From Nitrosomonas sp. Nm33 (GTDB lineage Bacteria; Pseudomonadota; Gammaproteobacteria; Burkholderiales; Nitrosomonadaceae): a stretch of DNA of 50,717 nt. The stretch spans positions 1-50,717 of the forward strand of contig NZ_FNPJ01000014.1 in assembly GCF_900107265.1 (NCBI RefSeq). Direction: 5' to 3'. The notes beneath the pieces were generated by a model. It was not told the origin of the DNA. It made no database searches and saw only the letters and a list, made by a program, of their open reading frames with translations. The position numbers were made by a program, and so were the translations under genes. Positions 2,169-45,351 of the stretch are shown here, one piece after another. Position 1 is the stretch's first letter, and the number at the start of each line of letters is the position of its first letter.

Positions 2169-2271
2169 ATTTCATTTCTAAATCAAACATGACGCGAAGG
2201 CGAGCCGCAGACAGTATGAATAATACGGCAAGGTGAAGCCGACAAAATCAGGTTTGATTTAGAAATGGAAT
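2169..2271 (+). mobile_element. 103-bp TIR repeat, copy 1
   Basis: Forward-orientation copy of the intergenic family. Its ends read ATTTCATTTCTAAATCAAAC and GTTTGATTTAGAAATGGAAT, and the core is GCCGCAGACAGTATGAATAA. It lies immediately upstream of the GTG start of the VOC gene. Confidence 0.85.
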
Positions 2272-2728
2272 AACTATATGGTTTTCGTATATTTTCTAAA
2301 CTTTTGACATTAACATCAACAAAGTTGTTATGTTTGTCGGGCCCTTTCCAGCTGGCAATAGCAGGGAACTATGTATTCGCTCCAATCCCATTAAGGGAAA
2401 AAAATTCACCTTGCATTTACGGATAAAGTCCTTATAGCAGTTTTTAGGCTAGAAAGTGATTTTACGCAAGCCAACCATTTTTTAAGATCATTTTCTAAAC
2501 CCAAAAAGTAGCATCACATCGGCTTTTAACGTCGTTCATACTGGATTCGAGTAAATTGTTAACTCAATTTGCATAAATTGTCTCCTTACGACCACATAAG
2601 AAAACTACTATAAAACATAGTATTAATTAAATTTACTAACTTTTATGTAGCTGAGCAGAGACATTCAGATTTCTTTCTTATTTTTAAAGAAAACAAAAGT
2701 AACTGATTCTCTTAGCATAAATATTTTT

Positions 2729-2744
2729 TGGCATAGATATTGCC
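2729..2744 (+). promoter_or_regulatory. Candidate sigma-54 (RpoN) promoter
   Basis: TGGCATAGATATTGCC fits the RpoN -24/-12 pattern TGGCAY-N5-TTGC. GG and GC are separated by exactly 10 bases, which is the invariant spacing. A start about 12 bases downstream would give a transcript leader of roughly 100 bases ahead of the CAP-domain gene at 2859. No enhancer-binding protein gene is visible in the window, so this is a sequence-only call. Confidence 0.5.
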
Positions 2745-2760
2745 TTTTGTAGAAGGAGAC

Positions 2761-2818
2761 TAAAGAGTTTTGCTCTATAAGCAAAAAGCTAAAACTGCTT
2801 TTAGAACAATACTCTTTA
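2761..2818 (+). promoter_or_regulatory. Structured leader: outer stem with inner hairpins
   Basis: TAAAGAGT (2761-2768) pairs perfectly with ACTCTTTA (2811-2818). Inside, TTTGCT (2769-2774) pairs with AGCAAA (2780-2785), and AAGC (2786-2789) can pair with GCTT (2797-2800). Together these give a possible three-way junction in the 5' leader of the CAP-domain gene. It matches no riboswitch class I can name. Chance folding in AT-rich DNA is possible. Confidence 0.35.
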
Positions 2819-2858
2819 CTCTTTAAATTCTACAAATCCAAAAAATGGAGTCACATTT

Positions 2859-4172
2859 ATGTCTCAAGCAAATGCTTATGAGCAATACATGCTGGAACTT
2901 ATTAATGCTGAACGTGCTAAGGTTGGTGCTCAACCTCTCGCCTTCGATGGTGATCTGAATGAAGCGGCAGAAAATCATAGCAGCTGGATGATCGCAACCG
3001 ACACTTTCTCTCACACAGGCGCAGGTGGATCAAGCGCTGGTGATCGTATGGGAGCAGCAGGTTACACATTCTCCGGCGCTTGGACCTGGGGAGAAAATAT
3101 CGGCTGGAGGAGCACCAGCGCACCGGCTGGTCTGGTAGATGAAGTGGAGCAATTACACACCTCGTTGATGAATTCATCTGGTCATAGGGCCAATATCTTA
3201 AATGACAATTTCCGTGAAATTGGGGTTGGTCTAGAAGTTGGTCCGTACAGCAGTTACGAAGGTGCTTTCGTTACGCAAGATTTTGCCAAAACGGCAACAA
3301 ATCCTTTTCTGACAGGGGTTGCATTTGATGACTTGGATGGCGATAAGCATTACGATATCAATGAAGGGTTAGGCAACTTTACTGTGAGTGCCAAAAATAA
3401 TGCAACTGGCATTGTCACAACGACACAGACCAGCTCAGCTGGCGGTTATGAATTGGAGCTCGCTTCTGGAAACTATACAGTCAGTTTTGCTGGTAACGGA
3501 TTTACTACAACCACTCAGCAAGTTAGCATCGGTAGCAAGAATATCAAGCAGGATCTGATTGATCCAGTCACGGGTGATAGTACGCCCGTTCCTGTACCAG
3601 CACCAACTCCCGGGCCAACACCAACTCCTGTACCAGCACCGACTCCTGAACCAGCACCAGCTTCTGAGCCAACTCCAGCTCCTGAATCAACACCAGCTCC
3701 TGTACCAGCAGCAACTTCTGAGTCAATATCAACTTCTGAGCCAACACCGACTCCTGAATCAACACCCACTACTGAACCAACACCAGCTCCTGAACCCAAT
3801 ACGGTCACTGATAACTCATCGAATCCGGATACGCTGGTCACTCCTCCTGACGATAATGTAATCCCAGGTTCGGGAGGAAATAATAACAATGTCGTAAATA
3901 ACGATCTTACTGGTAAAGAAGGAAACGACACCTTTGGCTTTTATACATTGGGTCATTTCCAAGTGAATGATTTTACTATTGGTGAAGATTACTTATTCTT
4001 TGATTCTGGAAAATTTGGAATCAATAGTATCGAGCAACTCGTTTCATTTATTACAAATATTAATCAAACAACGGATGGTACTACTATTGAGTTTGGCCAA
4101 GATGCGTCTATTAATCTAGTTGGTATCAATTTGAATGATATTACCGCAGGTACGATTATCTTTGATCTCTGA
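2859..4172 (+). CDS. CAP/SCP-domain protein with Pro/Thr/Glu linker, likely exported
   Basis: This is a 437-residue modular protein. Residues ~5-145 form a CAP (SCP/PR-1-like) domain with H52 (FSH), the GEN motif at 78-80 and H109 in GHRANIL, the usual pocket residues. Residues ~150-232 resemble an SdrD-B/carboxypeptidase-regulatory-like beta module (GVAFDDLDGDKHYDINEG). Residues ~241-315 are a Pro/Thr/Glu/Ala repeat linker. The C-terminal ~100 residues contain GKEGNDTFGFY and end in IIFDL. There is no N-terminal signal peptide, and the acidic GND-like C-terminal region suggests type I secretion, but that is inference because no ABC exporter is nearby. A TGGAG motif precedes the ATG. CAP proteins are often extracellular and of unknown activity. 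Confidence 0.8.
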   Translation: MSQANAYEQYMLELINAERAKVGAQPLAFDGDLNEAAENHSSWMIATDTFSHTGAGGSSAGDRMGAAGYTFSGAWTWGENIGWRSTSAPAGLVDEVEQLHTSLMNSSGHRANILNDNFREIGVGLEVGPYSSYEGAFVTQDFAKTATNPFLTGVAFDDLDGDKHYDINEGLGNFTVSAKNNATGIVTTTQTSSAGGYELELASGNYTVSFAGNGFTTTTQQVSIGSKNIKQDLIDPVTGDSTPVPVPAPTPGPTPTPVPAPTPEPAPASEPTPAPESTPAPVPAATSESISTSEPTPTPESTPTTEPTPAPEPNTVTDNSSNPDTLVTPPDDNVIPGSGGNNNNVVNNDLTGKEGNDTFGFYTLGHFQVNDFTIGEDYLFFDSGKFGINSIEQLVSFITNINQTTDGTTIEFGQDASINLVGINLNDITAGTIIFDL

Positions 4173-4210
4173 TCACCCAGGTAAAAATTAACATGTGAAA
4201 CTCCTCCGTA

Positions 4211-4260
4211 AACAGACTACAATTTAACAGAAGTTAGATTGTGGTCTGTTCTTTTTTCTA
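4211..4260 (+). terminator. Rho-independent terminator after the CAP-domain gene
   Basis: AACAGACTACAAT (4211-4223) pairs with ATTGTGGTCTGTT (4238-4250), with one G-T type wobble, and is followed by CTTTTTTC. It ends just before the converging prfB stop codon, so it may serve both strands. Confidence 0.8.
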
Positions 4261-4263
4261 AAT

Positions 4264-5377
4264 TTAGACAGCATCAACACCCTGTTTCAAACTGGCTTCG
4301 ATAAAATCATCCAGATCGCCATCAAGTACTGCTTGCGTGTTGCCGATTTCAACATTAGTCCGTAAATCCTTAATGCGAGATTGATCCAGCACATAGGAAC
4401 GGATCTGATAACCCCATGCGATATCAGTCTTAGCATCCTCTACCGCTTGCTTGGTCTCATTACGCTTCCGCAATTCTGCCTCGTAGAGACGTGATTTCAG
4501 CATGGCCATGGCATCTGCTCTATTCCGATGCTGGGATCGACCACTTTGGCATTGCACCACGATATTGGTAGGAAGATGGGTAATCCGGACAGCCGAGTCG
4601 GTCTTATTGATATGCTGACCACCTGCTCCAGATGCTCGGAAGGTATCCACACGCAAATCTGCTGGGTTGATGTCAATCTCGATACTATCATCGACTTCCG
4701 GGTAAACGAATACACTGGCAAAAGAGGTATGACGGCGGTTACCCGAATCAAACGGTGATTTACGCACCAGGCGATGTACTCCTGTTTCGGTCCGTAAATA
4801 GCCATAGGCATAATCACCCGTCACTTTGAGCGTGGCACTTTTAATTCCTGCGATGTCGCCCGCAGACTCTTCAAGCACCTCTACTGCAAAATCGCGGCGC
4901 TCGCAATAGCGTAAATACATTCTTTCCAACATGGATGCCCAATCTTGGGCCTCTGTACCCCCTGAACCAGATTGAATATCGACAAAACAATTGCTGGGAT
5001 CCATAGGATTTGAAAACATGCGGCGGAACTCCATATCCGCTACCTTCTTCTCGAGTTGCGCGACGTCAGATACAATGCTTTGCAAAGTTGCTTCGTCATT
5101 TTCTTCTTTCGCAATCTGCAGTAATTCATCGGCATCCTGTAACTGCCTGTCGATCGCCTCAAGCATCGATACCACACTTTCCAGCATTTTTTTCTCGCGC
5201 CCTAGCTCCTGAGCACGCTGAGCATCGCTCCAGACTGCTGGATCTTCTGCCTGCCGCGTGACTTCAGTCAGGCGTAGCTTCTTATTATCGAAGTCAAAGA
5301 TACCTCCGCAATGATTTTTCTCGATCACTGAGATCGGCGAGGTCATGAATCAGGCTATTGAGTTGTTCTACTTCCAT
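4264..5377 (-). CDS. prfB: Peptide chain release factor 2, with programmed +1 frameshift
   Basis: RF2 recognises UGA and UAA and triggers peptide release at the ribosome. The SPF specificity tripeptide (RKSPFDSG) and the catalytic GGQ loop ([15 protein letters not shown]) are present. The gene starts at the ATG at 5377, giving [18 protein letters not shown] and so on. After 27 codons it meets an in-frame TGA at 5296-5294 inside CTTTGAC (5299-5293), preceded by GGAGG three bases before the CTT. This is the classic autoregulatory slip site. Ribosomes shift +1 and continue as [12 protein letters not shown], giving 370 residues. A simple ORF call starts at 5346 in the shifted frame, and its first 17 residues are not real. 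Confidence 0.93.
5293..5304 (-). promoter_or_regulatory. prfB: prfB programmed frameshift site
   Basis: Reading the minus strand, GGAGG TAT CTT TGA C gives an internal Shine-Dalgarno, the slippery CUU and the UGA stop in poor context (followed by C). It has the same arrangement and spacing as the Escherichia coli prfB element. When RF2 is scarce the UGA is decoded slowly and the ribosome slips forward. Confidence 0.93.
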
Positions 5378-5893
5378 ACGTTTACAATCCAAAATATATA
5401 ATCAAAGAAATATTGTAGCGCTTATTGAGTCAATTTGCCTGATTACAAGATAAACCCAGTTCCTGACTGTATCAAGCCGACTAGATTGATACTATTAAGA
5501 TTTACCAGGGTATCCGGCGCATATCCTGCCAAAGTAACAACTGTTAATTACCTTCCTCCAGCCTCTGCATCGTAAACACCAAAATTACTTAATCGAAAAT
5601 TTTTGTTGTTTCTTCATATCATTAGCATCAATCTTCAAAAATTCTGGGCAAGCATAAATTTTCTAGTACAACAATAAATAATTTAGCTCTATCATATTTG
5701 GCCAAATGAGAAACGATTGTTATGATATTAAATCTGGTGTTCCTCATTGCAATGAGTTACACAATTTGATTCCAATAGTTGGGAAAGTTTGTGAAATCTG
5801 AAACAAAGCTAATCTAATAACGTTCAGTCTGAGCTAAATGTTCTCTAGCCGAAATCAAAATGCTATTGAACAACCTTAAAAAAGATAACAAAG
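5378..5893. other. Intergenic region between prfB and rlpA
   Basis: This is 516 bases, AT-rich, between divergent genes. It should hold promoters for both, but I could not pick confident -35/-10 pairs. A perfect 12-bp palindrome ATTTGGCCAAAT lies at 5696-5707. No ORF with protein features was seen. Confidence 0.5.
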
Positions 5894-6499
5894 GTGATGA
5901 TGACGATAATAGAATCAAGATTCAGTCTACTTAAAACAAAAACAAATCCAGTTTATGAACTATTTACGATCAAGTTTATAGAATTGCGAACGACTAGCAA
6001 GCTACCACGTTCAAGCACTACTGGGATATTGATATTGCTGCTCGTCTTTTTATTCAGTGGCTGTTCTACTCCCACAAAAACTCCTACCTCATCAGTATCC
6101 CGGACCAAGCAAGCTGCACCCTATAAAAATAATGCATCGTACAATAGACCCTATAAAGTAGGAGGTAAAACATATTATCCAATGTCCTCAGCAGCAGGTT
6201 ATCGTGAGAAAGGAATTGCTTCATGGTATGGCAAAGAATCGGGTAATCGAACTGCGATGGGTACACGTTTTAATCCGCAAGGGCTGACTGCTGCACATAA
6301 GACCCTCCCCTTGCCCACCAAAGTAAGGGTTACCAATCTTAGTAATGGCCGTACCGTCGATGTCGTTGTCAACGATCGTGGTCCTTTCAAAAGAAACAGA
6401 TTAATTGACCTATCACATGGTGCGGCTAAAAAGATTGGTTTACATGGTCTTGGTCAAGTAAGGGTAGAATACCTTGAGAGTCTAGCCAGCAATCCATAA
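5894..6499 (+). CDS. rlpA: RlpA-like septal ring lytic transglycosylase (lipoprotein)
   Basis: The C-terminal part (residues ~105-196) is a double-psi beta-barrel domain of the RlpA family, with GIASWYGKESGNRTAMGTRF, LPLPTKVRVTNLSNGRTVDV and VNDRGPF. RlpA cleaves denuded peptidoglycan strands at the division septum or is an inert relative. A hydrophobic stretch ending LFLFSGC places a lipobox cysteine at residue ~57, so the product is probably an outer-membrane lipoprotein. The N-terminus before it is unusually long. The start cluster GTG-ATG-ATG at 5894-5902 follows an AAAGG motif, so any of the three could serve; a TTG at 5984 would give a conventional signal length but lacks a Shine-Dalgarno. 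There is no SPOR domain, unlike many RlpA proteins. Confidence 0.8.
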   Translation: MMMTIIESRFSLLKTKTNPVYELFTIKFIELRTTSKLPRSSTTGILILLLVFLFSGCSTPTKTPTSSVSRTKQAAPYKNNASYNRPYKVGGKTYYPMSSAAGYREKGIASWYGKESGNRTAMGTRFNPQGLTAAHKTLPLPTKVRVTNLSNGRTVDVVVNDRGPFKRNRLIDLSHGAAKKIGLHGLGQVRVEYLESLASNP

Positions 6500-6560
6500 C
6501 AGCCTGGTTTCACGGGAACTATCATTCAGGAGAGTTACCGCCATAGTATTGATATTTTGC

Positions 6561-6575
6561 CGTCTTGCTAAGACG
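6561..6575 (+). terminator. Short hairpin after rlpA
   Basis: CGTCTT GCT AAGACG forms a 6-bp perfect stem with a 3-base loop, 62 bases after the rlpA stop. No T-run follows on the plus strand, so terminator function is uncertain. Confidence 0.3.
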
Positions 6576-6714
6576 AAATAAAATATTCATCTAAATGAAG
6601 CACATAAAAGGTATTATTCAGCTTACGGGTAGCTATTTATTTCAGGATATAAACTGCTACTTTCTAATAAGCATTACTGAAAGATTTTAAATCGAGGTTA
6701 TTTAAGGAGGACAC

Positions 6715-7992
6715 TTGGAGCGCGGATTCTTTACGATAATGGCGGCACAATTTTTTTCGTCATTAGCTGATAATGCATTATTGGTAGTAGCGATCGCGCT
6801 ATTAACTGACTTGCATGCCCCCGCTTTTCTTACCCCCATGCTCAAATTCGTATTTGTGCTGTTCTATGTTATCCTGGCACCCTTTGTTGGTGCATTTGCT
6901 GATTCCATGGCTAAGGGGCGGGTCATGCTTATCAGCAACTCGATTAAAATCGTTGGCTGTGCCCTTCTGTTCCTTGCCATGCATCAGTATTTTGCGCTTG
7001 GAGCCTATGCTATAGTGGGGTTGGGTGCAGCTGCTTATTCTCCTGCAAAGTACGGCATATTGACTGAGTTGTTGCCACCGGAAAAATTGGTCATTGCCAA
7101 CGGCTGGATTGAAGGATTAACTGTAGCGTCTATCGTACTTGGCACAGTGTTTGGTGGGCTTCTCATCACCCCAGCCATTTCGTCTGTCTTGCTATCGCTT
7201 GATTTTCCTTTCATTGATATAGGGCTATTAAATACACCAATAGAAGTAGCTCTTCTGCTTGTTGCAGTGTGTTATATGATTGCAGCCACTTTTAATTTAT
7301 TCATACCCAATACAGGGATTGATCATCGAATACTCAGAAAGAATCCGTCATTTCTGATCCACGAATTTGCACATTGCGTCAAGTTATTATGGACCGACAA
7401 GCTTGGACAAATCTCGCTTGCTGTCACAACTTTGTTCTGGGGAGCAGGCGCCACTTTGCAGTTTATTGTTTTGAAATGGGCTGATATCGCACTTGGCTTT
7501 CCACTCAATGAAGCGGCGCAATTACAAGGTGTAGTGGCACTCGGCATTGCGCTCGGAGCGGTCTTGGCTGCTAAATTAATCACTCTGCGCGATTCAGCAA
7601 AAGTCATTCCACTCGGTATTGCCATGGGCTTAGTCGTTATGATAATGATTACTGTGCGAGATTTATGGATTGCGATTGTGTTGCTTATTTTGATCGGTAG
7701 TCTGGCTGGTTTTTTTGTGGTACCAATGAATGCCCTACTACAGCATCGCGGATATATTTTAATGGGCGCCGGTCATTCGATCGCAGTGCAGAATTTCAAC
7801 GAGAATCTCAGTATTCTTGTCATGATATCGCTGTATGCGCTGCTCATCATGCTGGATGTGCATATTTATGTTGTAATTGCGCTATTTGGTTTATTTGTGG
7901 CTGTGACCATGATTCTCATCCATAAATGGCACCTGTTTAATCAAAGCAAGCAGGATTCACTTCATATGATTGGTATGCATAAAATACATTGA
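6715..7992 (+). CDS. lplT: Lysophospholipid transporter LplT-like MFS protein
   Basis: This is a 425-residue polytopic membrane protein of the major facilitator type. Family-specific stretches include AQFFSSLADNALL at the N-terminus, LAPFVGAFADSMAKGRVM and GAAAYSPAKYGILTELLPP, which match LplT. LplT flips lysophospholipids across the inner membrane for reacylation, in enterobacteria by the neighbouring Aas enzyme. No aas gene is adjacent here, so the acyltransferase partner must be elsewhere. The start is a TTG at 6715 with a strong AGGAGG four bases upstream. The gene ends in a 103-bp repeat copy shared with the converging uracil-DNA glycosylase gene. Confidence 0.85.
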   Translation: MERGFFTIMAAQFFSSLADNALLVVAIALLTDLHAPAFLTPMLKFVFVLFYVILAPFVGAFADSMAKGRVMLISNSIKIVGCALLFLAMHQYFALGAYAIVGLGAAAYSPAKYGILTELLPPEKLVIANGWIEGLTVASIVLGTVFGGLLITPAISSVLLSLDFPFIDIGLLNTPIEVALLLVAVCYMIAATFNLFIPNTGIDHRILRKNPSFLIHEFAHCVKLLWTDKLGQISLAVTTLFWGAGATLQFIVLKWADIALGFPLNEAAQLQGVVALGIALGAVLAAKLITLRDSAKVIPLGIAMGLVVMIMITVRDLWIAIVLLILIGSLAGFFVVPMNALLQHRGYILMGAGHSIAVQNFNENLSILVMISLYALLIMLDVHIYVVIALFGLFVAVTMILIHKWHLFNQSKQDSLHMIGMHKIH

Positions 7993-8005
7993 TGATTATC
8001 ATGTA

Positions 8006-8108
8006 ATTCCATTTCCAAATCAGAAATGACGCAAGAGCGAACCACAGACAGTATAAATAATACGGCAAGGAGAAGCCGACAAAGTCAGGTTTGATCTAGA
8101 AATGGAAT
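8006..8108 (+). mobile_element. 103-bp TIR repeat, copy 2
   Basis: Forward-orientation copy starting ATTCCATTTCCAAATCAGAA and ending CTAGAAATGGAAT. It lies between the converging lplT and udg genes and may act as a bidirectional terminator through its hairpin. Confidence 0.88.
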
Positions 8109-8127
8109 AACTGCTTTACCGAGAAAA

Positions 8128-8865
8128 TCATTGCGTTAACAAGGATTGCATAGTTGCTTTGGCAAAGCATAAATCTTCCCATGCCTTGGCTTTCTCTGCG
8201 AGTGCGCGTAATAGATAGGCGGGATGATAAGTAACGATCAAAGGAATATCTGAATAATAATGTAACTTGCCACGGAGATTGGCAATACTTTCATTGGTAT
8301 GCAATAAATTCTGTGCCGCAATTTTTCCTAATGCAACAATAAGCTTGGGTTTAATCAATACAATCTGTCGTGCCAGATAAGGGTGGCACTGCTCAGCCTC
8401 GCTGGGCTCAGGATTTCTATTATTAGGCGGGCGGCATTTTACGATATTGGTGATATAAACCCGATCACCGCGCTGCAATTGAATAGCCCTCAGCATATTG
8501 TCAAGCAATTTACCTGCTTGACCAACGAACGGCTCTCCTATTTCATCTTCTTTCGCACCGGGTCCTTCACCGATAAACAACCAATCGGCCTGTTCATCAC
8601 CCACTCCGAACACCGTTTGCGTTCTTGACTGACAGAGCGGGCATGCCGTACAGCCAGCAACTGCAGCTTTGAGCTGCGCCCAATCCATCCTTGAAATTTG
8701 CGCTTCTCGATCATTAGTTGCTGTTATTGTGGCATTGACTACTGGAACAGACTGATCAATCGTCAAAGTCGATGGTGCTGGCTCGCTCAGAGCATTATCT
8801 CCCCTCCGACGCCAAATAGGGGTCAAACCGAGTTCTCTTAATATCTCTTTGCGTCGTTGACTCAT
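8128..8865 (-). CDS. Family 4-type uracil-DNA glycosylase, 4Fe-4S
   Basis: This 245-residue protein removes uracil from DNA. Four cysteines (C72, C75, C144, C160) fit the iron-sulfur ligand pattern of thermophile-type (family 4) UDGs. Motif A is [17 protein letters not shown] (residues ~99-115) and the later active-site motif HPAYLL is at 214-219. The N-terminal ~65 residues ([18 protein letters not shown]) are an extension often seen in betaproteobacterial members. The ATG overlaps the rimI stop as ATGA, so the gene is the last member of the ispD-to-udg operon. Confidence 0.9.
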
Positions 8866-9994: not shown

Positions 9995-10037
9995 TGGAAA
10001 CTAAAGGAATCTTTCTGAAGAACAATGTGATACCGCA

Positions 10038-14070: not shown

Positions 14071-14110
14071 GATGTCAATCGAGTAGCTTAAATAATCAGA
14101 TATTGTGTTA

Positions 14111-14778: not shown

Positions 14779-15144
14779 TTAATAGCCTAACATAAAACGG
14801 GCATCTCCCGTGCCAATACCCAGGAAAAAGTTACCCGGTGCTACGCCATAAACGGGTGGATAATAAGGTTGGTCATAATAAATGTTCCGCGTAATGTAAT
14901 GATTATGGTGATGATGCGGCCGGCCATAACCACCATATCCTGGTCCGGGGTCGTAATAATGATGTTCATGATAATCATCATAATCATCGTCATAGTCATC
15001 GTCATAGTCATCGTCATGGTCATGATGATGGTAGTAGTGGTGACCTCTTCCAGCTTCAACTACCATGGGAACCGCTAGCGCAACACTCAACAACAATGCA
15101 GCTAACAATTTTATTAGCGTATTCCTTTTAGTTCTCATCTTCAT
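14779..15144 (-). CDS. Histidine/aspartate-rich secreted protein, copy A
   Basis: This is a 121-residue protein with a signal peptide cleaved near VVEA-GRGHH (residue ~31). The mature part is dominated by His, Asp and Tyr runs (HHYYHHHDHDDDYDDDYDD), then a Gly/Tyr/Pro segment, and ends in GNFFLGIGTGDARFMLGY. Such composition suggests binding of Ni, Zn, Cu or Fe in the periplasm; no family is recognised. It shares signal peptide and C-terminus with the protein at 15613-15942, so the two arose by duplication. An AAGGAGG Shine-Dalgarno precedes the ATG, and two TGATCA boxes lie upstream in both copies. Confidence 0.8.
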   Translation of the reverse strand: MKMRTKRNTLIKLLAALLLSVALAVPMVVEAGRGHHYYHHHDHDDDYDDDYDDDYDDYHEHHYYDPGPGYGGYGRPHHHHNHYITRNIYYDQPYYPPVYGVAPGNFFLGIGTGDARFMLGY

Positions 15145-15612
15145 GGTATGCCTCCTTGATTATTTTTATTGATCAGAATTTCTTCTGTTGGTGATCACTT
15201 TATCCTGGAGATAATAAACACAAGCTGAACAATCAGAAAAGAATAAAAAATAGGATTTGCTATTTGCAGGAATCATGGGTACGCATGATCGCAGCACATT
15301 TGGTCAATGCTAAATAATAAAACATTATTATTTGGACTGCCCGCTGAATCTGGCGATCCTTGCCCGAATATTTCGCCAGGACGCAGAATGAGAGAGTGAA
15401 GCGTTCTGTGCGCAGATTTGCGTGTACTGCGGTCAAACTAATAACCGAGTCTATTGATGTGAAGCAGAGGCACAAAAAAAATGCCATAAAACGACCGCCT
15501 AGCGCCAGTAAAGGCCAGTCAGTGCAAGTTAGTTTTATCCATAAGATACCCTCATATCTTGATTCTTCCTTCTTTGCATTGATATAAGCGTCGGTCTGGT
15601 AAAATACTCCAG
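15145..15612. other. Intergenic region between the two His-rich genes
   Basis: This is 468 bases. 15145-15240 resembles 15943-16055 upstream of the second His-rich gene, and 15265-15359 is a decayed copy of the start of the fadB-like gene (listed separately). The remaining bases to 15612 are unassigned. Confidence 0.65.
15265..15359 (+). pseudogene. Decayed duplicate of the 5' part of the fadB-like gene
   Basis: The stretch matches bases ~16323-16415 of the intact gene. GCAGGAATCATGGG aligns with GCAGGAGTCATGGG, and both end in CTGCCCGCTGAATCTGGCG. The copy has small insertions that break the frame and lacks the true start and the rest of the gene. It marks the far end of a tandem duplication that also produced the second His-rich gene. 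Confidence 0.75.
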
Positions 15613-15942
15613 TTAATAGCCTAACATAAAACGGGCATTCCCCGTGTTAATGCCGAGGAAAAAGTTTCCCGGTACTGCGCCATAATAACCACCATAAGCG
15701 GGAGGATAATAGGGTTGGTTGTAATAAATATTCCGTGTATTGTAATGATGATGGTGGTGACGATGGTCATGATGATGGTGACGACCATGATCATGATGAT
15801 GGTGGCGATGATGATGGTGATGGTGGTGGTGGCGATGATGGCCTCTGCCAGCTTCAACCACCATGGGAATCGTTAAAGCAACGCTCAATAACATTCCAGA
15901 TAATAATTTTACTGGTATGCTTATTTTAGTTCTCGTTTTCAT
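15613..15942 (-). CDS. Histidine-rich secreted protein, copy B
   Basis: This is a 109-residue paralogue of the protein at 14779-15144. The signal peptide (VKLLSGMLLSVALTIPMVVEA) and the C-terminus (GNFFLGINTGNARFMLGY) match closely. The middle differs: here it is nearly all His with Arg and Asp, without the Asp/Tyr runs. Mature protein from residue ~32 is His-dominated, so a periplasmic metal buffer is plausible. An AAGGAGG Shine-Dalgarno lies before the ATG, and the leader contains TGATCA boxes shared with copy A. The function is inferred from composition only. Confidence 0.8.
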   Translation of the reverse strand: MKTRTKISIPVKLLSGMLLSVALTIPMVVEAGRGHHRHHHHHHHHRHHHHDHGRHHHHDHRHHHHHYNTRNIYYNQPYYPPAYGGYYGAVPGNFFLGINTGNARFMLGY

Positions 15943-16278
15943 GTTACACCTCCTTAGTTGTTTTTTTATTGATCAGAATATCTTTCTATCTTTCTTCTGT
16001 TGCTGATCACTTTATACTGGGGATCATGAATACAAGCTGAACAATCTGAAAAGAAAGAAACAGAACGACAAATGCTTGTACCTTATTTTGCTTGCGTAAT
16101 TAACATCAATCTTTACAGAAATGAAACGGTTCCCGCTTGCTCTTTGAAGTTCATACTTGTAATCTTTTGATCAAAGAGCTTGAAATAGTCATCTGAATAA
16201 GATGTAATCAAGGAATTATGCAGGAATGTGCTGCCTTAGCAGCTTCATCCAATAACCAGATCGAGCGGAGGGATAAAA

Positions 16279-20050: not shown

Positions 20051-20153
20051 ATTCCATTTCCAAATCAAACATGACGCAAGAGCGAGCCGCAGACAGTATA
20101 AATAATACGGCAAGGTGAAGCCGACAATGTCAGGTTTGATTTAGAAATGAAAT
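20051..20153 (+). mobile_element. 103-bp TIR repeat, copy 3
   Basis: Forward copy beginning ATTCCATTTCCAAATCAAAC and ending TTTAGAAATGAAAT, 34 bases after the thiolase stop. It probably works as the 3' end hairpin of that operon. Confidence 0.88.
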
Positions 20154-20641: not shown

Positions 20642-20647
20642 CAGCTC

Positions 20648-23988: not shown

Positions 23989-24092
23989 ATTCCATTTTAT
24001 AAATCAAACATGACACAAGAGCGGGCCGCAGACAGTATTCATAATACGGCAAGGAGAAGCCAACAAAATCAGGTTTGATTTAGAAACAGAGT
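23989..24092 (+). mobile_element. 103-bp TIR repeat, copy 4 (diverged)
   Basis: Forward copy with one extra base near the left end (ATTCCATTTTATAAATCAAA) and a worn right end (TTAGAAACAGAGT). It is the most diverged of the seven, between the lactonase-like gene and rimO. Confidence 0.8.
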
Positions 24093-26734: not shown

Positions 26735-27925
26735 ATGGACATAGACATTGTTTCAGCATTATCTGGATTAATTGATTTACCGTGGTGGGGGTATATCGTC
26801 GTTACATTAGTCATTACCCATATCACGATTGCAAGCATCACGATTTATCTCCATCGGCATTCGGCTCACCGAGCATTGGATTTGCATCCTATCCCTAGTC
26901 ATTTCTTTCGTTTCTGGCTATGGTTGACTTCCGGTATGGTTACCAAAGAATGGACCGCTATTCACCGCAAGCATCACGCAAAATGTGAAACTTTAGATGA
27001 TCCGCACAGCCCTCAGATCTTTGGAATTAAAAAAGTATTGTCCGAAGGAGCAGAACTTTATCGCTTAGAAGCAAAAAACAAAGAAACTTTGGAAAGGTAC
27101 GGGCACGGTACACCAGATGATTGGATAGAACGCAACGTTTATACAAAATTTAGCGCATCTGGTATTGGGCTGATGCTAATTATCAATTTCATTCTGTTTG
27201 GCCCTATTGGTATTACTATATGGGCAGTACAAATGATGTGGACGCCTATATTCGCTGCGGGAGTCATTAATGGCATTGGTCACTATTGGGGATATCGTAA
27301 TTTCCAAGCAGAAGATGCCAGTCGCAATGTCTCTCCCTGGGGCATTCTGATTGGGGGAGAAGAATTACACAATAATCATCATGCCTACCCTACTTCAGCC
27401 AGACTATCCAATAAATGGTTTGAATTTGATATTGGCTGGTTGTACATACGTATTCTGGAAATGATGGGATTAGCAACCGTCAAGAAAATTGCACCTAAGC
27501 TTAACATCAACAAAACCAAAACCAAGTGTGATTCTGATACCCTCCAGGCAGTTATTGCCCATCGTTATGAGGTGCTGGCGAAATATACCCAGTCTCTCAA
27601 GGCAATGCTCAAGAAAGAAGTGGAACATTTACGAGAAGCCGCTTCCCAGCATGGGATAGATGGAAACACACTGAAACGCTGGATATTGGCAGATGCGAAA
27701 ACCTTGCAAGAAGAAGAACGTATCAAACTAAATCTGGTTTTAAGTAAAACCAAGAACCTTGATAAGGTTTATACGATGCGCGAGGAACTTGCAGCTATAT
27801 GGCAACGCTCTGCCGCTTCGAAAGATGAATTAGTTAAACAACTCGAAGATTGGTGCCATCGTGCAGAAGAAAGTGGAATTGAAGTTCTAGAAAAATTCTC
27901 ACGTCGGCTACGTTGCTATGCATAA
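26735..27925 (+). CDS. Membrane fatty acid (acyl) desaturase
   Basis: This 396-residue membrane di-iron desaturase has the three histidine boxes HRHSAH (40-45), HRKHH (77-81) and HNNHH (212-216), the signature of delta-9 acyl desaturases that put a double bond into membrane fatty acids. Hydrophobic spans lie at ~18-38, ~57-70 and ~142-180. The C-terminal ~130 residues are a soluble, charged, helical extension ending SGIEVLEKFSRRLRCYA. From memory, similar tails occur on some gammaproteobacterial desaturases. An AGGAGG precedes the ATG. A copy of the 103-bp repeat follows the gene. Confidence 0.9.
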   Translation: MDIDIVSALSGLIDLPWWGYIVVTLVITHITIASITIYLHRHSAHRALDLHPIPSHFFRFWLWLTSGMVTKEWTAIHRKHHAKCETLDDPHSPQIFGIKKVLSEGAELYRLEAKNKETLERYGHGTPDDWIERNVYTKFSASGIGLMLIINFILFGPIGITIWAVQMMWTPIFAAGVINGIGHYWGYRNFQAEDASRNVSPWGILIGGEELHNNHHAYPTSARLSNKWFEFDIGWLYIRILEMMGLATVKKIAPKLNINKTKTKCDSDTLQAVIAHRYEVLAKYTQSLKAMLKKEVEHLREAASQHGIDGNTLKRWILADAKTLQEEERIKLNLVLSKTKNLDKVYTMREELAAIWQRSAASKDELVKQLEDWCHRAEESGIEVLEKFSRRLRCYA

Positions 27926-27989: not shown

Positions 27990-28092
27990 ATCCCATTTCT
28001 AAATCAAACCTGACTTTGTCGACTTCTCCTTGCCGTATTATTTATACTGTCTGCGGCTCGCTCTTGCGTCATGTCTGATTTGGAAATGGAAT
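27990..28092 (-). mobile_element. 103-bp TIR repeat, copy 5 (reverse)
   Basis: Reverse-orientation copy, ATCCCATTTCTAAATCAAAC at the left and TGATTTGGAAATGGAAT at the right. It lies between the converging desaturase and rng genes. Confidence 0.88.
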
Positions 28093-36057: not shown

Positions 36058-36098
36058 AATGGTTTGGAAATAATATACTGGTCAGTTTTAGACAAAAA

Positions 36099-36956: not shown

Positions 36957-37109
36957 TACTTTATAAGAAATAGGCTAAATTGAATACTTGCGCAAAAAGA
37001 TATCTTGTAGCTCACAACCATTGCAGCTGTACTTGCTTTGATAGAAATTTGGATAATACACGATGCTAATTCTTATCTGAAAATTAAAATGAATGCTTAA
37101 GAATTCATA

Positions 37110-37778: not shown

Positions 37779-37947
37779 GCTTATAACCTTTATTTTTCCG
37801 AGGAAAATTTATAACCTAACACATTATAACCTGCTAGCGAACACTAAAACCCAGAAAATAGGAGATAAGCAAATTAAATAGTAAATAGTTACTACCACCT
37901 AGGGTACAAACTATTAATACTATAGACTTGGCTTGTCTCTTCCTCGT

Positions 37948-37953
37948 TATAAT
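37948..37953 (+). promoter_or_regulatory. Putative -10 box of the argS promoter
   Basis: A perfect TATAAT lies 28 bases before the argS ATG. TTGGCT is the closest -35 candidate but its spacer is only 14 bases, so the -35 remains uncertain. Confidence 0.5.
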
Positions 37954-37981
37954 AGCGCCTTATTAAATTGATTTTCTCATC

Positions 37982-39733: not shown

Positions 39734-39762
39734 CAGAAATCATATATAGTATAGGAATTTTC

Positions 39763-40374
39763 ATGAGCAGAGACTACAAATCCAAGGGTATGGCAACCGC
39801 AAAAAGCAGTGGTTCACTTATTCTAGGACTCTTTATCGGATATGCGCTTGGCATAGCAAGCGCAATAGGTGTATGGGCATTAATCAATCAAGCTCCAAGC
39901 CCGTTCCTAACTGAAGAAAAATCAGCCAAAACTAAACCTCACGAAAGTATTGCCAAAAACTCACAGAATGATAGCGTTAACAAGGAAATTGATCAGGTAA
40001 GTGCGAATAAGCCTCGCTTTGATTTCTATAATATACTCCCAGGCATAGAGGAGCCTTTAGCCGAAGAACCATTCGGTCAAGGGGTGAAGCAGTCACCTCC
40101 TCCCGTAACAAATGATGCGAGCTCGGCAAGTAATTATTTCCTACAGATTGGCTCGTACAAAAACTCAGGTGAAGCGGAAAGAATGAAAGCAGAACTGGCA
40201 TTACTCGGCGTGATTGCTTCTGTTCAAACGGCAGAATCTTCTGACAAAGGTACGCGATATAGAGTTCGTATAGGCCCTTACGCAAAAATCACTGAAATTG
40301 ATCAAATACGCGCTTCATTGCAAGAAAATGGAATAGAAGCCAGTTTTGTCAGAGCTCCCAAGAAAACACCATAG
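39763..40374 (+). CDS. SPOR-domain cell division protein, FtsN-like
   Basis: This 203-residue protein has a single transmembrane helix at ~18-42 (SLILGLFIGYALGIASAIGV) after a short cytoplasmic N-terminus. A flexible periplasmic linker follows, then a C-terminal SPOR domain (~126-200, SNYFLQIGSYKNSGEAERMK and GTRYRVRIGPY). SPOR domains bind denuded peptidoglycan at the septum. The layout is that of FtsN, but FtsN is poorly conserved, so a general SPOR-protein call is safer. The argS-SPOR-dsbA order is typical of this clade. Confidence 0.85.
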   Translation: MSRDYKSKGMATAKSSGSLILGLFIGYALGIASAIGVWALINQAPSPFLTEEKSAKTKPHESIAKNSQNDSVNKEIDQVSANKPRFDFYNILPGIEEPLAEEPFGQGVKQSPPPVTNDASSASNYFLQIGSYKNSGEAERMKAELALLGVIASVQTAESSDKGTRYRVRIGPYAKITEIDQIRASLQENGIEASFVRAPKKTP

Positions 40375-40454
40375 CAATATAGCAATCCTGATTGAGTAAA
40401 CTTAATTACCGGGTAGTAGTTAGCTAAACAACTTATAGAAGAGCAAAATAAAAT

Positions 40455-41096
40455 ATGAATAAATTCTTTAAATTTTTCCTAACATTCATTACCCTTAGTC
40501 TCTCAGGGATGTTGCTTGCACATGCAGAAATCATTGAAGGACGCGATTATATTGTTCTCGCGAATCCTCAGCCAACTGAAGATCAACGAAATATTGAAGT
40601 CATTGAGTTTTTCTGGTACGGCTGCCCACATTGCTATGAATTACATCCACATATAGATAATTGGCGCAAGAATGCTCCCAAGGATGTGAAATTTCGATAT
40701 GTTCCAGCAATTTTTCGTGCTAATTGGACACCTGCAGCAAAAACTTTCTATGCAATGGAAGCGTTAGGTATTACAAAAGAACTTCACGATAAGATATACA
40801 AAGCTATTCATCGTGACAAAATTGATTTGTCGAAGGAAGCTGTACTATTTGATTGGATTGAAAAACAAGGAATTGAGCGCGAAAAATTTATCAATGCCTA
40901 TAATTCTTTTTCCGTCCAAAATCAAGTAGCAAAGATTTCACAAATGACAAGACAATATAAATTAACCGGTGTACCGGCTTTAGTGGTTGAAGGAAAATAT
41001 TTAACTAGTGGAAAGATGAGCGGTACACCGCGCGACACGATTCAGGTATTGAATGAATTAATTGACAAAGCACGGAAGGAGCGAGCTTCGAATTAA
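40455..41096 (+). CDS. dsbA: Thiol:disulfide interchange protein DsbA
   Basis: DsbA introduces disulfides into periplasmic proteins. The signal peptide is cleaved near residue 24 (AHA-EIIEG). The active site is CPHC at residues 57-60 in FFWYGCPHCYEL, and the cis-proline loop is TGVPALVVEGKY. Length is 213 residues. It is the third gene of the argS-SPOR-dsbA run and ends 58 bases before the converging spoT stop. Confidence 0.95.
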   Translation: MNKFFKFFLTFITLSLSGMLLAHAEIIEGRDYIVLANPQPTEDQRNIEVIEFFWYGCPHCYELHPHIDNWRKNAPKDVKFRYVPAIFRANWTPAAKTFYAMEALGITKELHDKIYKAIHRDKIDLSKEAVLFDWIEKQGIEREKFINAYNSFSVQNQVAKISQMTRQYKLTGVPALVVEGKYLTSGKMSGTPRDTIQVLNELIDKARKERASN

Positions 41097-41154
41097 ACTA
41101 TTCTAAAAACCATTATAAAATGATTGCTTGCTGAGCTTTTTAGGCAATACACGC

Positions 41155-43305
41155 CTAATTCTTCGCTCGGCCAAGTTTCACAACTTCCTGAATATGCCTC
41201 AAACCTCGCATGATTTGAGCAAGATGACGGCGATTCCTAGCCTGCAAAATGAAGTGCATCATGGTGTAATCTTTATCGCTTTCCATAGTGACATCATCGA
41301 TATTCGAATCAGCCCTAGCAATTTCTGCGGCGACTCTAGCAAGTACACCACGTTGATTTACCACTGTCATGTTAATGCCTACTTCAAAAGTTCCAGATAT
41401 ATCTTTGCCCCATGTCACATCCAATACATTCTCGGATTTTCTCTGAATTCTCATCACAACCGGACAATTATGGACATGAATCACTAACCCCTGATCTTTT
41501 TTAATCAACCCAACGATCGTATCCCCAGGAATAGGGTAACAGCATCGAGCAAACTGTACTGTCATACCTTCCGTCCCAAGAATCACAACGGGATTACTGG
41601 CGCCAGTGACTTCAGATATTGATTCTCCAGGTACCACTAAACGCTTAGCAACGACGGCTGAAAGTTGTTTTCCTAAGGTGATATCGGCAAGTAAGGCTTT
41701 TTTTGACTTAGCACCGCTGTCCCTGACAAGTCTTTCCCATTGTGTGTCAGTGATAGAATCAGGGTTGATCCCAAATGAGGATAGAGCTTGATTGAGCAAA
41801 CGCTCACCTAGCTTTACTGACTCTTCATATTGAATGGTTCTAAGAAAATAACGAATGCTTGAACGCGCTCTTGCTGTAGCAACATAAGAGAGCCAGGCAG
41901 GATTGGGGTTACCATAGGGCGCAGTTACAATCTCAACACGATCGCCATTCATTAATTCAGTACGCAATGGCACATTCTCTCCGTTAATTTTTGCTGCAAC
42001 ACAACAATTACCCACATCTGTATGTATCGCATAAGCAAAATCAACTACTGTAGAACCTCTTGGTAACTCAAGTATTTTTCCTTGGGGCGTGAACACATAG
42101 ACCTCACCAGGAAACAGATCGACCTTGAGATGCTCCAGAAACTCAATTGAATCGGAAGAATCGCTTAAGGTTTCCAGTAAGCTTTTTAGCCACTGATTTG
42201 TTTTTAGATGCAGCTCATTCACCTCTGCACCATTGCTTTTATAGAGCCAATGGGAAGCTACGCCCATTTCAGCAATCCGATGCATCTCATAGGTTCGAAT
42301 TTGTATTTCTATTGGCAAACCATAAGGCCCCAGCAATGTATTATGAAGCGATTGATAGCCATTAAGCTTAGGAATCGCAATATAATCCTTAAATTTACCA
42401 GGGATGGGTTTATACAGACTATGTAAGGCGCCTAATGCCAGATAACACGAAGGAATATCCCTCACCAACACACGAAAGCCATAAATATCCAGCACCTCCG
42501 AGAAGCTCAGATGCTTCTCAAGCATTTTTTTATAGATACTATAAAGATGCTTCTCTCTCCCGGTTACAATGGCATCTACACCGGCATCTTTAAGTCGATT
42601 TTTTATCGCTTCAAGAATTTTGCCCACTACTTCGCGACGGTTGCCACGAGCTGCTTTAGTTGCTTTCACCAGCACCTTGTAACGATTGGGATAGAAATAA
42701 CGAAAGCTAAGCTCCAGCAATTCTTGGTAAATACTGTTTAAACCCAAGCGATGTGCAATAGGCGCATATATCTCCAAAGTCTCCCGTGCGATGCGACGCT
42801 GCTTTTCAGGACGCATAACTTCCAGCGTGCGCATATTATGTAAGCGGTCAGCCAATTTAATAAGGATAACCCTTACATCATGCGCCATAGCTAATAACAT
42901 CTTACGGAAATTTTCAGCTTGTGCATCAGCCTGGGTCTGGAATTCAATCTTCTTCAATTTAGAGACGCCATCTACCAGCTCTGCAACTGATACGCCAAAT
43001 CTTTCGGCAATTTCTTCCTTGGAGATAGTCGTATCTTCAACAACGTCATGTAATAATGCAGCAGCAAGCGTGATTACATCTAGATGGAGTTCACAAAGGA
43101 TATGAGCAACCGTCACGGGATGAGAAATATAAGGTTCCCCAGTCATACGGAATTGCCCAGAATGAGCACCATGACTGAAAAAATACGCATTCTTGAGTAA
43201 AGCTAGATCTTCAGGCTTAAAATATTTCGATACCTCAGAAAATAACGACTCAGCTCCAGACGTTATTACATGAGAGTTCGATAATGAAAACTCTGACATA
43301 AGCAT
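41155..43305 (-). CDS. spoT: Bifunctional (p)ppGpp synthetase/hydrolase
   Basis: This 716-residue stringent-response enzyme has all expected domains. An intact HD hydrolase (ISHPVTVAHIL, LLHDVVEDT) is followed by a synthetase with KFKDYIAIPKLNGYQSLH and the EIQIRT motif, a TGS domain (VYVFTPQGKILELPRGSTV) and a C-terminal ACT domain. Intact HD motifs and the gmk-rpoZ-spoT order favour SpoT over RelA. A copy of the 103-bp repeat lies 52 bases upstream, so the promoter or the link to rpoZ passes through it. Confidence 0.95.
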   Translation of the reverse strand: MLMSEFSLSNSHVITSGAESLFSEVSKYFKPEDLALLKNAYFFSHGAHSGQFRMTGEPYISHPVTVAHILCELHLDVITLAAALLHDVVEDTTISKEEIAERFGVSVAELVDGVSKLKKIEFQTQADAQAENFRKMLLAMAHDVRVILIKLADRLHNMRTLEVMRPEKQRRIARETLEIYAPIAHRLGLNSIYQELLELSFRYFYPNRYKVLVKATKAARGNRREVVGKILEAIKNRLKDAGVDAIVTGREKHLYSIYKKMLEKHLSFSEVLDIYGFRVLVRDIPSCYLALGALHSLYKPIPGKFKDYIAIPKLNGYQSLHNTLLGPYGLPIEIQIRTYEMHRIAEMGVASHWLYKSNGAEVNELHLKTNQWLKSLLETLSDSSDSIEFLEHLKVDLFPGEVYVFTPQGKILELPRGSTVVDFAYAIHTDVGNCCVAAKINGENVPLRTELMNGDRVEIVTAPYGNPNPAWLSYVATARARSSIRYFLRTIQYEESVKLGERLLNQALSSFGINPDSITDTQWERLVRDSGAKSKKALLADITLGKQLSAVVAKRLVVPGESISEVTGASNPVVILGTEGMTVQFARCCYPIPGDTIVGLIKKDQGLVIHVHNCPVVMRIQRKSENVLDVTWGKDISGTFEVGINMTVVNQRGVLARVAAEIARADSNIDDVTMESDKDYTMMHFILQARNRRHLAQIMRGLRHIQEVVKLGRAKN

Positions 43306-43356
43306 TTCCCAATTTTTCGCGGTGCTAATTCAACTTTATTTTACAAATAGCAGATT

Positions 43357-43459
43357 ATTCCATTTCTAAATCAAGCCCGACTTTATCGACTTCTTCTTGC
43401 CGTATTATTTATATTGTTTGCGGCTCGTCTCCGCGTCATGTTTGATTTGGAAATGGATT
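43357..43459 (-). mobile_element. 103-bp TIR repeat, copy 6 (reverse)
   Basis: Reverse copy, ATTCCATTTCTAAATCAAGC at the left and TTTGATTTGGAAATGGATT at the right. It sits in the 413-base space between rpoZ and spoT. Confidence 0.85.
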
Positions 43460-43718
43460 TTTTTCTGTAATTGTAACTACGATGTTGGAATTACAAATAT
43501 TTCTGATCAAATACGTTTGAGATAAAAATCAACATAATATATCCAGGATACTCCTGAATTTATAGTGATTTTTGTATTATGCAAGATCAGAGGAGTGAAA
43601 TTAAAAAATTTTAATAGGCAATTTAATAATACTACACGTTCTATCGCCAGAAAATTTGTTACTTATAGATTATTTCAATTTTTTTCTGTTATGGTTTAAT
43701 TTTCTTACTACTTATCTT

Positions 43719-43922
43719 TTAACGGATGGTATTAAGAATTTCAAGTCCTACCTTCCCTTTAGCCAATTCACGTAGTGCAATGACAGTGGGCTTATCTCGA
43801 GCAGCATCTACCATTGGAGCAGAACCAATTGCTATCTGCCTTGCCCGGGCAGTAGCAGCCATTGTCATATCAAAGCGATTGGGAATAATTTTTAAACAAT
43901 CATCAACAGTGATACGAGCCAT
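43719..43922 (-). CDS. rpoZ: DNA-directed RNA polymerase omega subunit
   Basis: Omega helps fold and assemble beta-prime and contributes to ppGpp binding. The 67-residue length and [31 protein letters not shown] are unmistakable. It sits 49 bases after gmk, as expected, and is separated from spoT by 413 bases that include a 103-bp repeat; other proteobacteria usually have rpoZ and spoT closely coupled. Confidence 0.97.
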
Positions 43923-43971
43923 AATTTATTCCTTTTCTTTTTTCGTTAAAAATTTCACTAAAAAATATTAT

Positions 43972-44577
43972 TCAGGCAAATTGCGCTAACAATGCATGCT
44001 GTTTGACAAGCTGACGCTTCATTCTGAGGCGCTCTGCTCGAATAATACAACAAATATCTTTGAATGCTTCATCCAGTTCATTATTGATCACAACGTAACC
44101 AAATTTGTTCACTTGACTTATTTCTTCTCGGGCTGCCTTTAAACGCCGCGCAATTGTTTCTGGATCATCTTGTCCACGCTGTTTCAAACGAGCTTCTAAC
44201 AATGCTAGAGAAGGAGGTAAAATAAAAATGCTTACTGCCTCGGGAAAAATTTGCCGTACCTGCTGCGCTCCCTGACAGTCAATCTCCATCAAAACATCTT
44301 GACCTGATTCCATCGTTTCCTTTACCCAATGTTGTGAAGTGCCATATAAATTCCCATAAACTTCTGCACTTTCAAGAAATTCTCCTCGTTCCAACATTTG
44401 ATTAAAGGTGTCTCGATCGATAAAAAAATAATCTTGCCCATTTATTTCATTGGGGCGTGGTTGGCGAGTGGTGTGTGAAATCGATAGATTTAAACCAATA
44501 CGAGCCTGAAGCAATGCTTTGATCAAGCTGGTCTTACCAGCCCCTGAAGGAGCACTGATTATAAATAAACTACTCAT
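43972..44577 (-). CDS. gmk: Guanylate kinase
   Basis: Gmk phosphorylates GMP to GDP. The P-loop is SAPSGAGKTSLIKALL near residues 8-23, followed by SHTTRQPRPNEINGQDYFF for GMP binding. The lid and core helices contain RLKAAREEISQVNKFGY. Length is 201 residues. It begins the gmk-rpoZ run on the minus strand and links purine nucleotide supply to the stringent-response genes downstream. Confidence 0.97.
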   Translation of the reverse strand: MSSLFIISAPSGAGKTSLIKALLQARIGLNLSISHTTRQPRPNEINGQDYFFIDRDTFNQMLERGEFLESAEVYGNLYGTSQHWVKETMESGQDVLMEIDCQGAQQVRQIFPEAVSIFILPPSLALLEARLKQRGQDDPETIARRLKAAREEISQVNKFGYVVINNELDEAFKDICCIIRAERLRMKRQLVKQHALLAQFA

Positions 44578-44702
44578 ATTATGATTATATTGAATTTCCC
44601 TTACATTTTGAGAAGAAAATTTCTATTAAGGTGAGTCAATATTTATTTAGTATGCCTAATCACTTCATGATGTTTTCAATCTGAGAAACCATTAAAGTTA
44701 TT

Positions 44703-45167
44703 TTAATGCACTCCATGTTTCTCAAAATAACGTTGGTGATATTCTTCCGCAGGATAAAACTCAGAAGCAGGCAAAATTTCGGTTACGATCGGATCTCGCC
44801 AATGCCCGCTTTGCTGCAATGCGTCTCGTGAAGCTATTGCGGCAGCTTTCTGCTCCGGTGTATAAAAAAATATAACTGACCGGTATTGAGAACCTTCATC
44901 CGGCCCTTGACGATTAAGGGTAGTAGGATTATGGCAATGCCAGAAAGTATCAAGTAAATTTTCAAAAGAAACCAGCGAAGGATCATATTCTACCAGCACA
45001 ACTTCTGCGTGGCCTGTCTGATCTGAGCAAACATCATGGTAAGCAGGAAAGCGAGTATGGCCACCGGCATACCCAGACCTGACATTAACTACGCCATGAA
45101 CGCCACGAAAAGTAGCCTCCACACCCCAGAAACAACCAGCACCAAAGATAATTTTTTCGATAGCCAT
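44703..45167 (-). CDS. msrA: Peptide methionine sulfoxide reductase MsrA
   Basis: MsrA reduces S-methionine sulfoxide in proteins. The catalytic cysteine is C12 in FGAGCFWGVEATF. The conserved stretches RSGYAGGHTRFPAYHDVCSDQTGHAEV and NRQGPDEGSQYRSVIF follow. Length is 154 residues. The C-terminal cysteines used for recycling in some members are absent from the tail (it ends in YFEKHGVH), so it may rely on another resolving cysteine. It stands alone between gmk and a repeat copy. Confidence 0.95.
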   Translation of the reverse strand: MAIEKIIFGAGCFWGVEATFRGVHGVVNVRSGYAGGHTRFPAYHDVCSDQTGHAEVVLVEYDPSLVSFENLLDTFWHCHNPTTLNRQGPDEGSQYRSVIFFYTPEQKAAAIASRDALQQSGHWRDPIVTEILPASEFYPAEEYHQRYFEKHGVH

Positions 45168-45251
45168 AGCCCAAAATATATTTCCTTGGATAACACTATC
45201 TACGAACGCCGCTCATTCCAAAATAAAAATAATCCTAAAAGCGGTTTTTTT

Positions 45252-45351
45252 ATTCCATTTCCAAATCAAACATGACGCGAAGGTAAGTCGCAGATAGTAT
45301 AAATAATACAGCGGAGAAGCCGACAAAGTCAGGTTTGATTTAGAAATGAAA
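45252..45351 (+). mobile_element. 103-bp TIR repeat, copy 7 (100 bp)
   Basis: Forward copy, ATTCCATTTCCAAATCAAAC to TTTAGAAATGAAAT, three bases shorter in the core. It is upstream of msrA and downstream of the c-552 terminator. Confidence 0.85.

Follow-up and report, generated by a model that had tools for sequence, protein, structure and literature searches.

A dispersed 101-bp inverted-repeat element of Nitrosomonas that shares its hairpin core with the Correia elements of Neisseria

Seven copies of a short inverted-repeat sequence are scattered over positions 1 to 50,717 of contig NZ_FNPJ01000014.1 of Nitrosomonas sp. Nm33 (assembly GCF_900107265.1; this whole stretch of 50,717 nucleotides is called the window below), which raises the question of what kind of element they represent and how it is spread. 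A preliminary description, made from the letters of the window alone, had placed five copies forward and two reverse, all of them between genes, and had known no named family with this sequence. In our judgement the element is probably a non-autonomous miniature inverted-repeat transposable element (MITE) and belongs, as its Nitrosomonas branch, to a wide superfamily that includes the Correia elements; it is most likely driven by transposases of the IS630 family; the judgement applies to both parts of this reading jointly. In the following, G, f and L with a number denote genomes, families and extracted stretches, respectively, and R1 is the profile model of the element.

The 3.23-Mb genome of strain Nm33 (171 contigs) was searched with R1, resulting in 141 matches, of which 109 were full length at 77 bits or more and the remainder were halves, weak copies or reverse-strand echoes; the count is possibly higher, since 150 of 1084 first-look candidates were scored. 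The pattern of the ends (at most 3 mismatches) gave 215 matches and its reversed control 0, so that the repeat greatly exceeds chance expectation. From genome stretches 110 entries were extracted; two near-palindromic copies had been entered once per strand, which leaves 108 distinct copies. Open reading frames (ORFs) of at least 100 amino acids were overlapped by only 7 of the 108 copies, though such ORFs cover 78% of the analysed sequence; the neighbouring ORFs were converging for 27 copies, tandem for 55 and diverging for 13, and 6 copies were located at stretch edges. Being only 101 bp long, the element contains no gene. It thus has the marks of a MITE, being short, bounded by terminal inverted repeats, present in many dispersed copies and devoid of coding capacity. 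No element in the window or at 17 loci gave an Rfam match at gathering score.

The flanks of the copies carry the trace of insertion. An exact 3-bp duplication of the type TWA was present at 65 of the 108 Nm33 copies (shuffle mean 35.0, maximum 51) and at 87 of 135 copies of a Nitrosomonas set that overlaps the former (shuffle mean 47, maximum 62), with TTA/TTA in 46, TAA/TAA in 39 and mixed flanks in 13 cases; flank matches over 2 bp or 4 bp were not enriched. The preliminary description had proposed a search for filled and empty sites, and both kinds were found: where a related site lacks the copy, one TWA stands at the corresponding point, as in the copy of L078 compared with L119, L114 and L110, and in the copies of L051 and L055 compared with L104 (29 alignments, some of them not clean). 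Some of the filled and empty sites fall in repeated genes resembling those of insertion sequences (IS); copies were also located inside the IS630 elements L412 and L411, and IS ends were found within copies of the element. With both target-site duplication and empty sites, the repeat is a miniature transposable element. REP/BIME elements, associated with RAYT, are not known to make a target duplication, and the TWA duplication found here sets the present element apart from them.

The remark on a missing named family needs correction, as the core of the element is that of the Correia elements (CREE, NEMIS). The 29-bp core agrees with that of Neisseria in 27 of 29 bases. Published end patterns of Correia elements were taken from PMC2911385 and PMC2649163; both ends flank the core in 22 of 52 extracted rows, representing 19 distinct places, all in family f44, which was taken as Neisseriaceae because of these ends. 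Compared with the Nitrosomonas core, the commonest core among the Correia-ended rows, GCCGCAGACAGTACAAATAGTACGGCAAG, has C in place of T and G in place of A, and these two bases pair with each other. Both elements have the same length, hairpin layout, high copy number, mostly intergenic position and TA-containing target. They differ in their hosts, Neisseria for Correia and Nitrosomonas for the present element, in the ends, which begin TATAG[CT]GGATTAA in Correia and TTCCATTTCYAAATC in Nitrosomonas and bear no resemblance by eye, and in the duplication, which is TA in Correia and the 3-bp TWA here.

The core was widely but unevenly distributed. Within the genus it was found (at most 2 mismatches; reversed control 0) in 12 of 85 Nitrosomonas genomes, with 1 to 247 matches each; 7 of the 73 genomes without a core match keep one diverged copy, detected through its ends. 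Scanning named genomes for the exact 29-mer yielded 97 stretches, the carriers being Nitrosomonas communis Nm44 and mag.23, Nitrosomonas sp. Nm34 and HPC101, as well as rumen Neisseriaceae and one Avibacterium paragallinarum. The element is therefore carried by other genomes too, and its copies are not confined to one duplicated region. In a sample of the order, 39 of 399 genomes from 12 families matched the core (at most 3 mismatches), two of the 39 being Nitrosomonas; within f44, 52 of 83 genomes matched. Copies were viewed for nine of the 12 families (f20, f43 and f50 left out), and most of these families showed other inverted ends; L152 (f38) has no clear ends, and those of L153 (f5) somewhat resemble the Nitrosomonas ends. 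A sample of the class, scanned with a shorter pattern (at most 1 mismatch), gave matches in 3 of 369 genomes, one of them outside the order. No match was obtained in viral contigs (exact pattern), plasmids or phages. In L156 (G287) four core copies are arranged in tandem, 110 bp apart. The copy of A. paragallinarum (L113) resembles, by eye, a copy of the rumen Neisseriaceae (L102), a likeness that suggests transfer between distant groups.

An IS630-type vehicle is not a new idea for Correia elements, which have already been called IS630-derived (PMC2817692); in PMC2649163 they are treated as a feature of Neisseria and their mover is described as not determined. The RUP element of Streptococcus pneumoniae, 107 bp in length, is comparable in that a resident IS630 with matching ends, IS630-Spn1, has been proposed to move it; for other bacterial repeats, end matches were not found or not sought according to the same source (PMC2229807). 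As far as searches of openly licensed PMC papers show, three findings are new: a Nitrosomonas branch that duplicates TWA, a core that is widely shared while its ends have been exchanged, and the covariation of the hairpin described below. The occurrence of the superfamily in a dozen families of one order makes questions on Correia elements testable outside pathogens. Two such questions are opened: which enzyme moves the elements, and why the middle is more conserved than the ends, the reverse of the usual MITE pattern.

For the first question, the transposase domain DDE_3 was searched in six Nitrosomonas genomes and matched in five of them, with 28 matches in Nm33. The candidate fragments were labelled DDE_3 and IS630; one of five scanned fragments passed the NCBIfam cut-off, the others being partial. 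The preliminary description had proposed to look for a transposase with matching ends, and a family with similar ends was found in relatives. The IS630 elements L413 and L412 (G003) are about 1.12 kb in size, L412 being longer and holding a copy of the small element; they are flanked by TTA/TTA and TAA/TAA, respectively, and their ends start with TTCCATTTCTA at both sides or one. The relatives L407 (G002) and L414 (G003) have TTA on both sides. The usual duplication of IS630 is TA. In the related Nitrosomonas IS630 elements of about 1.1 kb, the first 11 end bases are the same as those of the small element, and the TWA duplication is found as well. Identity of their ends with the own-genome element amounted to 18, 18, 15 and 16 of 24 positions (shuffle p 5e-5 to 5e-4, which is optimistic, the IS630 elements having been picked by a tip pattern drawn from the small elements), as against 5, 6 and 9 of 24 for three other IS types. 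Likeness to the IS630 family thus comprises the end tips and the TWA duplication of the Nitrosomonas TTCCATTTC group, whereas the IS630 elements code for a transposase and six uninterrupted ones lack the core.

In f44, IS630 elements were chosen by the tip TATAG, for which the shuffled 99th percentile was 16.5 to 17 of 26. The IS630 ends of G473 agreed with its own element in 22 of 26 positions and with others in at most 17; those of G481 and G495 agreed with own-genome elements in 20 and 19 of 26, although the G495 span was a composite interrupted by other elements. Of 15 f44 genomes searched for DDE_3, 9 gave a match. A link to the IS630 family is plausible for f44, and the genome-by-genome link is partial. 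The copies of f25, f27 and f51 carried the 3-bp TWA duplication in 17 of 31 cases (shuffle 8.2, maximum 14). In G284 (f51) the ends of the DDE_3 elements are unlike those of the f51 copies, and among the listed places and 30 loci no IS with the ends of f25, f27 or f51 copies was found, the tips of interest for f25 and f27 being AGMGCNGCTAACAAAAC.

Apart from the selection by tips, several points weigh against IS630 as the vehicle. DDE_3 was found neither in Nitrosomonas G024, which holds 8 copies of the element, nor in any of five f25 and f27 genomes searched, nor in six of the 15 f44 genomes, among them G509 with the most core copies (333). Where DDE_3 was not found, the enzyme may have been lost or may be another one. 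The limits of the IS are confirmed by alignment breakpoints (BLAST, at most 3 bp from the limits) only for L413 versus L412 and for L414 versus L395, that of L407 being unconfirmed. The IS630 of this tip group in the Nm33 genome, the shortened L354, scored 16 of 24, and this copy, the only one there with both ends, has unlike flanks. In f44, the IS ends of G481 and G495 scored higher (21 and 22) with the element of another genome, and the IS of G503 fitted its own sampled element (16) worse than that of G481 (20).

Elements of the IS5 family (PF13340) were tried as vehicle and rejected for their unlike tips; 30 loci were inspected out of 94 matches from four genomes, and ends were found for few of them; IS5-type elements in these genomes can carry a TNA duplication, but have other ends. 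Long pairs of element ends around a gene were sought in 1.29 Mb of the genome, and only weak, unconvincing pairs were obtained.

Copies are themselves entered by other elements. Where IS630 of the L354 type is nested in the cores of copies, its junctions read AAATAA and TAATACGG, the pattern expected from a TAA duplication; they lie on two contigs and may or may not be one insertion. A second small element with ends TCCTAAAAACCGTAGTTG was seemingly inserted in the core of the copy in L137 (about 3567-3914) at its TAA. In L130, L135 and L127, IS with ends CGTGAGTTCGACATAAG are seemingly located in the cores of copies or adjoin a copy at TAA. Other elements thus seem to use the cores as a landing site.

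For the second question, the structure of the middle was analysed. The core is a hairpin of a stem P2, an internal loop GCAGACA/GGCAA and a stem P3 with GTAY/RTAC. Among 39 lineage representatives the loop strands were 99% (GCAGACA) and 98% (GGCAA) identical and the outer arms 33-38%, in a comparison that favours the core, the rows having been found through it with the arms outside the search pattern. P2, which lies between the ends and the core loop, takes many sequences whose partners change together, for example GGCAC/GTGCC, GGTTC/GAACC, GTGCG/CGCAC and GGCGAAGC/GCTTCGCC. Pairing was evaluated in two alignments, A4 with 39 sequences (38 of 68 rows plus L310) and A3 with 25 of 29 rows from rumen Neisseriaceae and Avibacterium (four dropped). 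In A4, 80.3% of cells were paired versus 68.2% after shuffling, and 55 cells showed double changes versus 19.4 in shuffles and at most 22 in slid versions; the number of pairs with double change, 8, was reached by 69 of 500 shuffles. A3 contained 63 double-change cells versus 21.8 after shuffling, with both end arms covarying, and its count of further pair types was reached by 143 of 500 shuffles. These figures refer to a structure chosen after viewing the sequences and to shuffles that leave relatedness in place. P2 is poorly paired in the Nitrosomonas branch and, by inspection, likewise in Correia itself. No two-sided compensating change occurred in any arm pair of the seven window copies, the inverted ends of which are imperfect, and end-arm mismatches of the Nm33 copies were also without compensation.

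Combining these observations, a unit of two layers would be spread as follows. An IS630 transposase would bind the terminal inverted repeats, cut the element out and insert it at CTWAG-like sites, and transposition by this DDE enzyme into TWA sites would duplicate the 3 bp. The ends form a layer that differs by lineage and resembles local IS630 ends in Nitrosomonas and part of the Neisseriaceae. The middle layer is the conserved hairpin, which recurs across lineages but was found in none of the six uninterrupted IS630 elements inspected. The hairpin probably serves the spread of the element itself rather than host regulation and may be needed in its cycle, perhaps by extruding in single-stranded DNA or, alternatively, through a bound bending protein that brings the two ends of the 101-bp unit together.

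As a tentative extension, for which we see somewhat less than an even chance, the hairpin core may be an independent, ancient hitch-hiking module, a structured unit of DNA or RNA that repeatedly took on the ends of the DDE transposons of its hosts; a single satellite would then have switched vehicles many times across Burkholderiales and some other gammaproteobacteria, and its invariant internal loop would be bound by a conserved factor, of the host or the transposase, on which spread depends.

Covariation in inverted repeats can also arise from template switching in replication, a further point against our reading: imperfect palindromes would be corrected, and the paired changes would not reflect selection for a fold. 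Both arms change together within one genome, as such correction would produce. Against it, the internal stem P2 varied while the adjoining loop strands remained invariant, and arm mismatches in the Nm33 copies were not mended, so that we regard template switching as rather unlikely to account for the stems.

Still less probable is an ordinary internal-deletion derivative of IS630 that kept the core of its parent and was spread by recent horizontal transfer. The IS630-like tips and target duplication would agree with it, as would the similar copies in Avibacterium and a rumen Neisseriaceae genome. However, the core was searched in nine IS630 spans and had no match in six; the match in L427 (5 mismatches) looks like chance, and in L412 and L450 the core belongs to an inserted copy or fragment. 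Moreover, deletion derivatives of different IS would be expected to show the reverse of what was seen over 39 lineages, where the loops are so much more alike than the arms.

A structured element that serves the host, be it a cis-regulatory RNA, an RNase III site, a terminator or a nucleoid-protein site kept locally to regulate neighbouring genes, was weighed last. Its support comprises the covarying stems with their invariant internal loops, the mostly intergenic position and the strong fold of copy 3 (the sole copy folded alone), which as RNA beat 200 of 200 shuffles on both strands; promoters and RNase III sites have also been reported for Correia copies (PMC2649163). The divergence of the 110 Nm33 entries from their consensus was 0.077 and 0.071 in the ends, 0.068 in the core, and 0.184 and 0.105 in the spacers. 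The more diverged spacers speak for host service and against our reading; they may stem from a constrained core, from the presence of subfamilies or from biased detection. At a few spacer sites the divergence of 0.3-0.4 resembles a difference between subfamilies. Since ends and core served to detect the copies, decay in these parts is hidden. Core and ends being about equally diverged speaks against host service, as do the transposition scars and the 73 of 85 congeners without a core match, though 7 of these keep a diverged copy. In copy 3, the one copy scanned, no sigma-70 promoter exceeded the chance level. Strand preference was rejected as a sign of RNA function: the bias of 39:16 among tandem genes in Nm33 (p 0.003) was not replicated in other sets (31:44), and GU/AC counts favoured no consistent strand (15:3 and 2:6 in A3, 12:30 in A4, 111:147 in the Nm33 ends). 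A general role for host genes is not supported, and we consider this explanation improbable.

One old copy is located at the same site in seven Nitrosomonas genomes (L251, L253, L254, L255, L258, L260 and L261), with TTA flanks in most; such retention is what a host-serving element would show. As read in L253, a ParE-like toxin gene takes its last codons and its stop from this copy, which also sets it apart from a gene similar to HTH antitoxins. Single copies can be taken over by the host, as at this toxin-antitoxin locus.

In the window the element is bounded by TTCC...GGAA and measures about 101 bp (99 to 102). The unit of about 103 bp in the preliminary description was real; its outer bases belong to the 3-bp target duplication. 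All seven copies were found at the places and in the orientations given there, with a mean column identity of 91% when oriented, and no copy lies inside a listed ORF judged to be a gene. The flanks are alike in copies 1, 2, 4 and 7 and unlike in copies 3, 5 and 6. Copy 1 (2170..2270, + strand, 101 bp) has TAA at 2167-2169 and 2271-2273 and lies 29 bp ahead of a glyoxalase-like gene, counted from the start of that gene, which is on the - strand; copy 6 (43358..43458, - strand; flanks AAA/TAA) lies 52 bp ahead of the start of a relA/spoT-like gene, and both positions just upstream of starts had been recognised before. The converging genes around copies 2 and 5 were also confirmed: copy 2 (8007..8107, + strand, 101 bp; TAA on both flanks) lies between MFS and uracil-DNA-glycosylase genes, and copy 5 (27991..28091, - strand; flanks TAA/TTA) between a desaturase/ISL3 fusion and an RNase E/G gene. 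Copy 3 (20052..20152, + strand, 101 bp; flanks TCA/TAT) follows a thiolase gene; its terminal inverted repeats are at 20052..20075 (left, + strand) and 20129..20152 (right, - strand), and its conserved core of 29 bp is at 20086..20114 (+ strand). Copy 4 (23990..24091, + strand, 102 bp; TAA on both flanks) is located between a metallo-beta-lactamase-fold gene and a radical-SAM/TRAM gene, and copy 7 (45253..45351, + strand, 99 bp; TTA on both flanks) between a cytochrome c gene and msrA.

The fusion adjoining copy 5 (26735-27925) is one ORF with a fatty-acid desaturase domain (17-220) and an ISL3 transposase stretch (273-393). Other repeats of the window are an array of 18-bp units within a CAP-domain gene (3546-3830), a duplicated stretch with 12-bp repeats rich in GATGAT, the copies of which lie about 800 bp apart (14779-16060), and an 87-bp direct repeat (262-509) with copies 161 bp apart and 86% alike.

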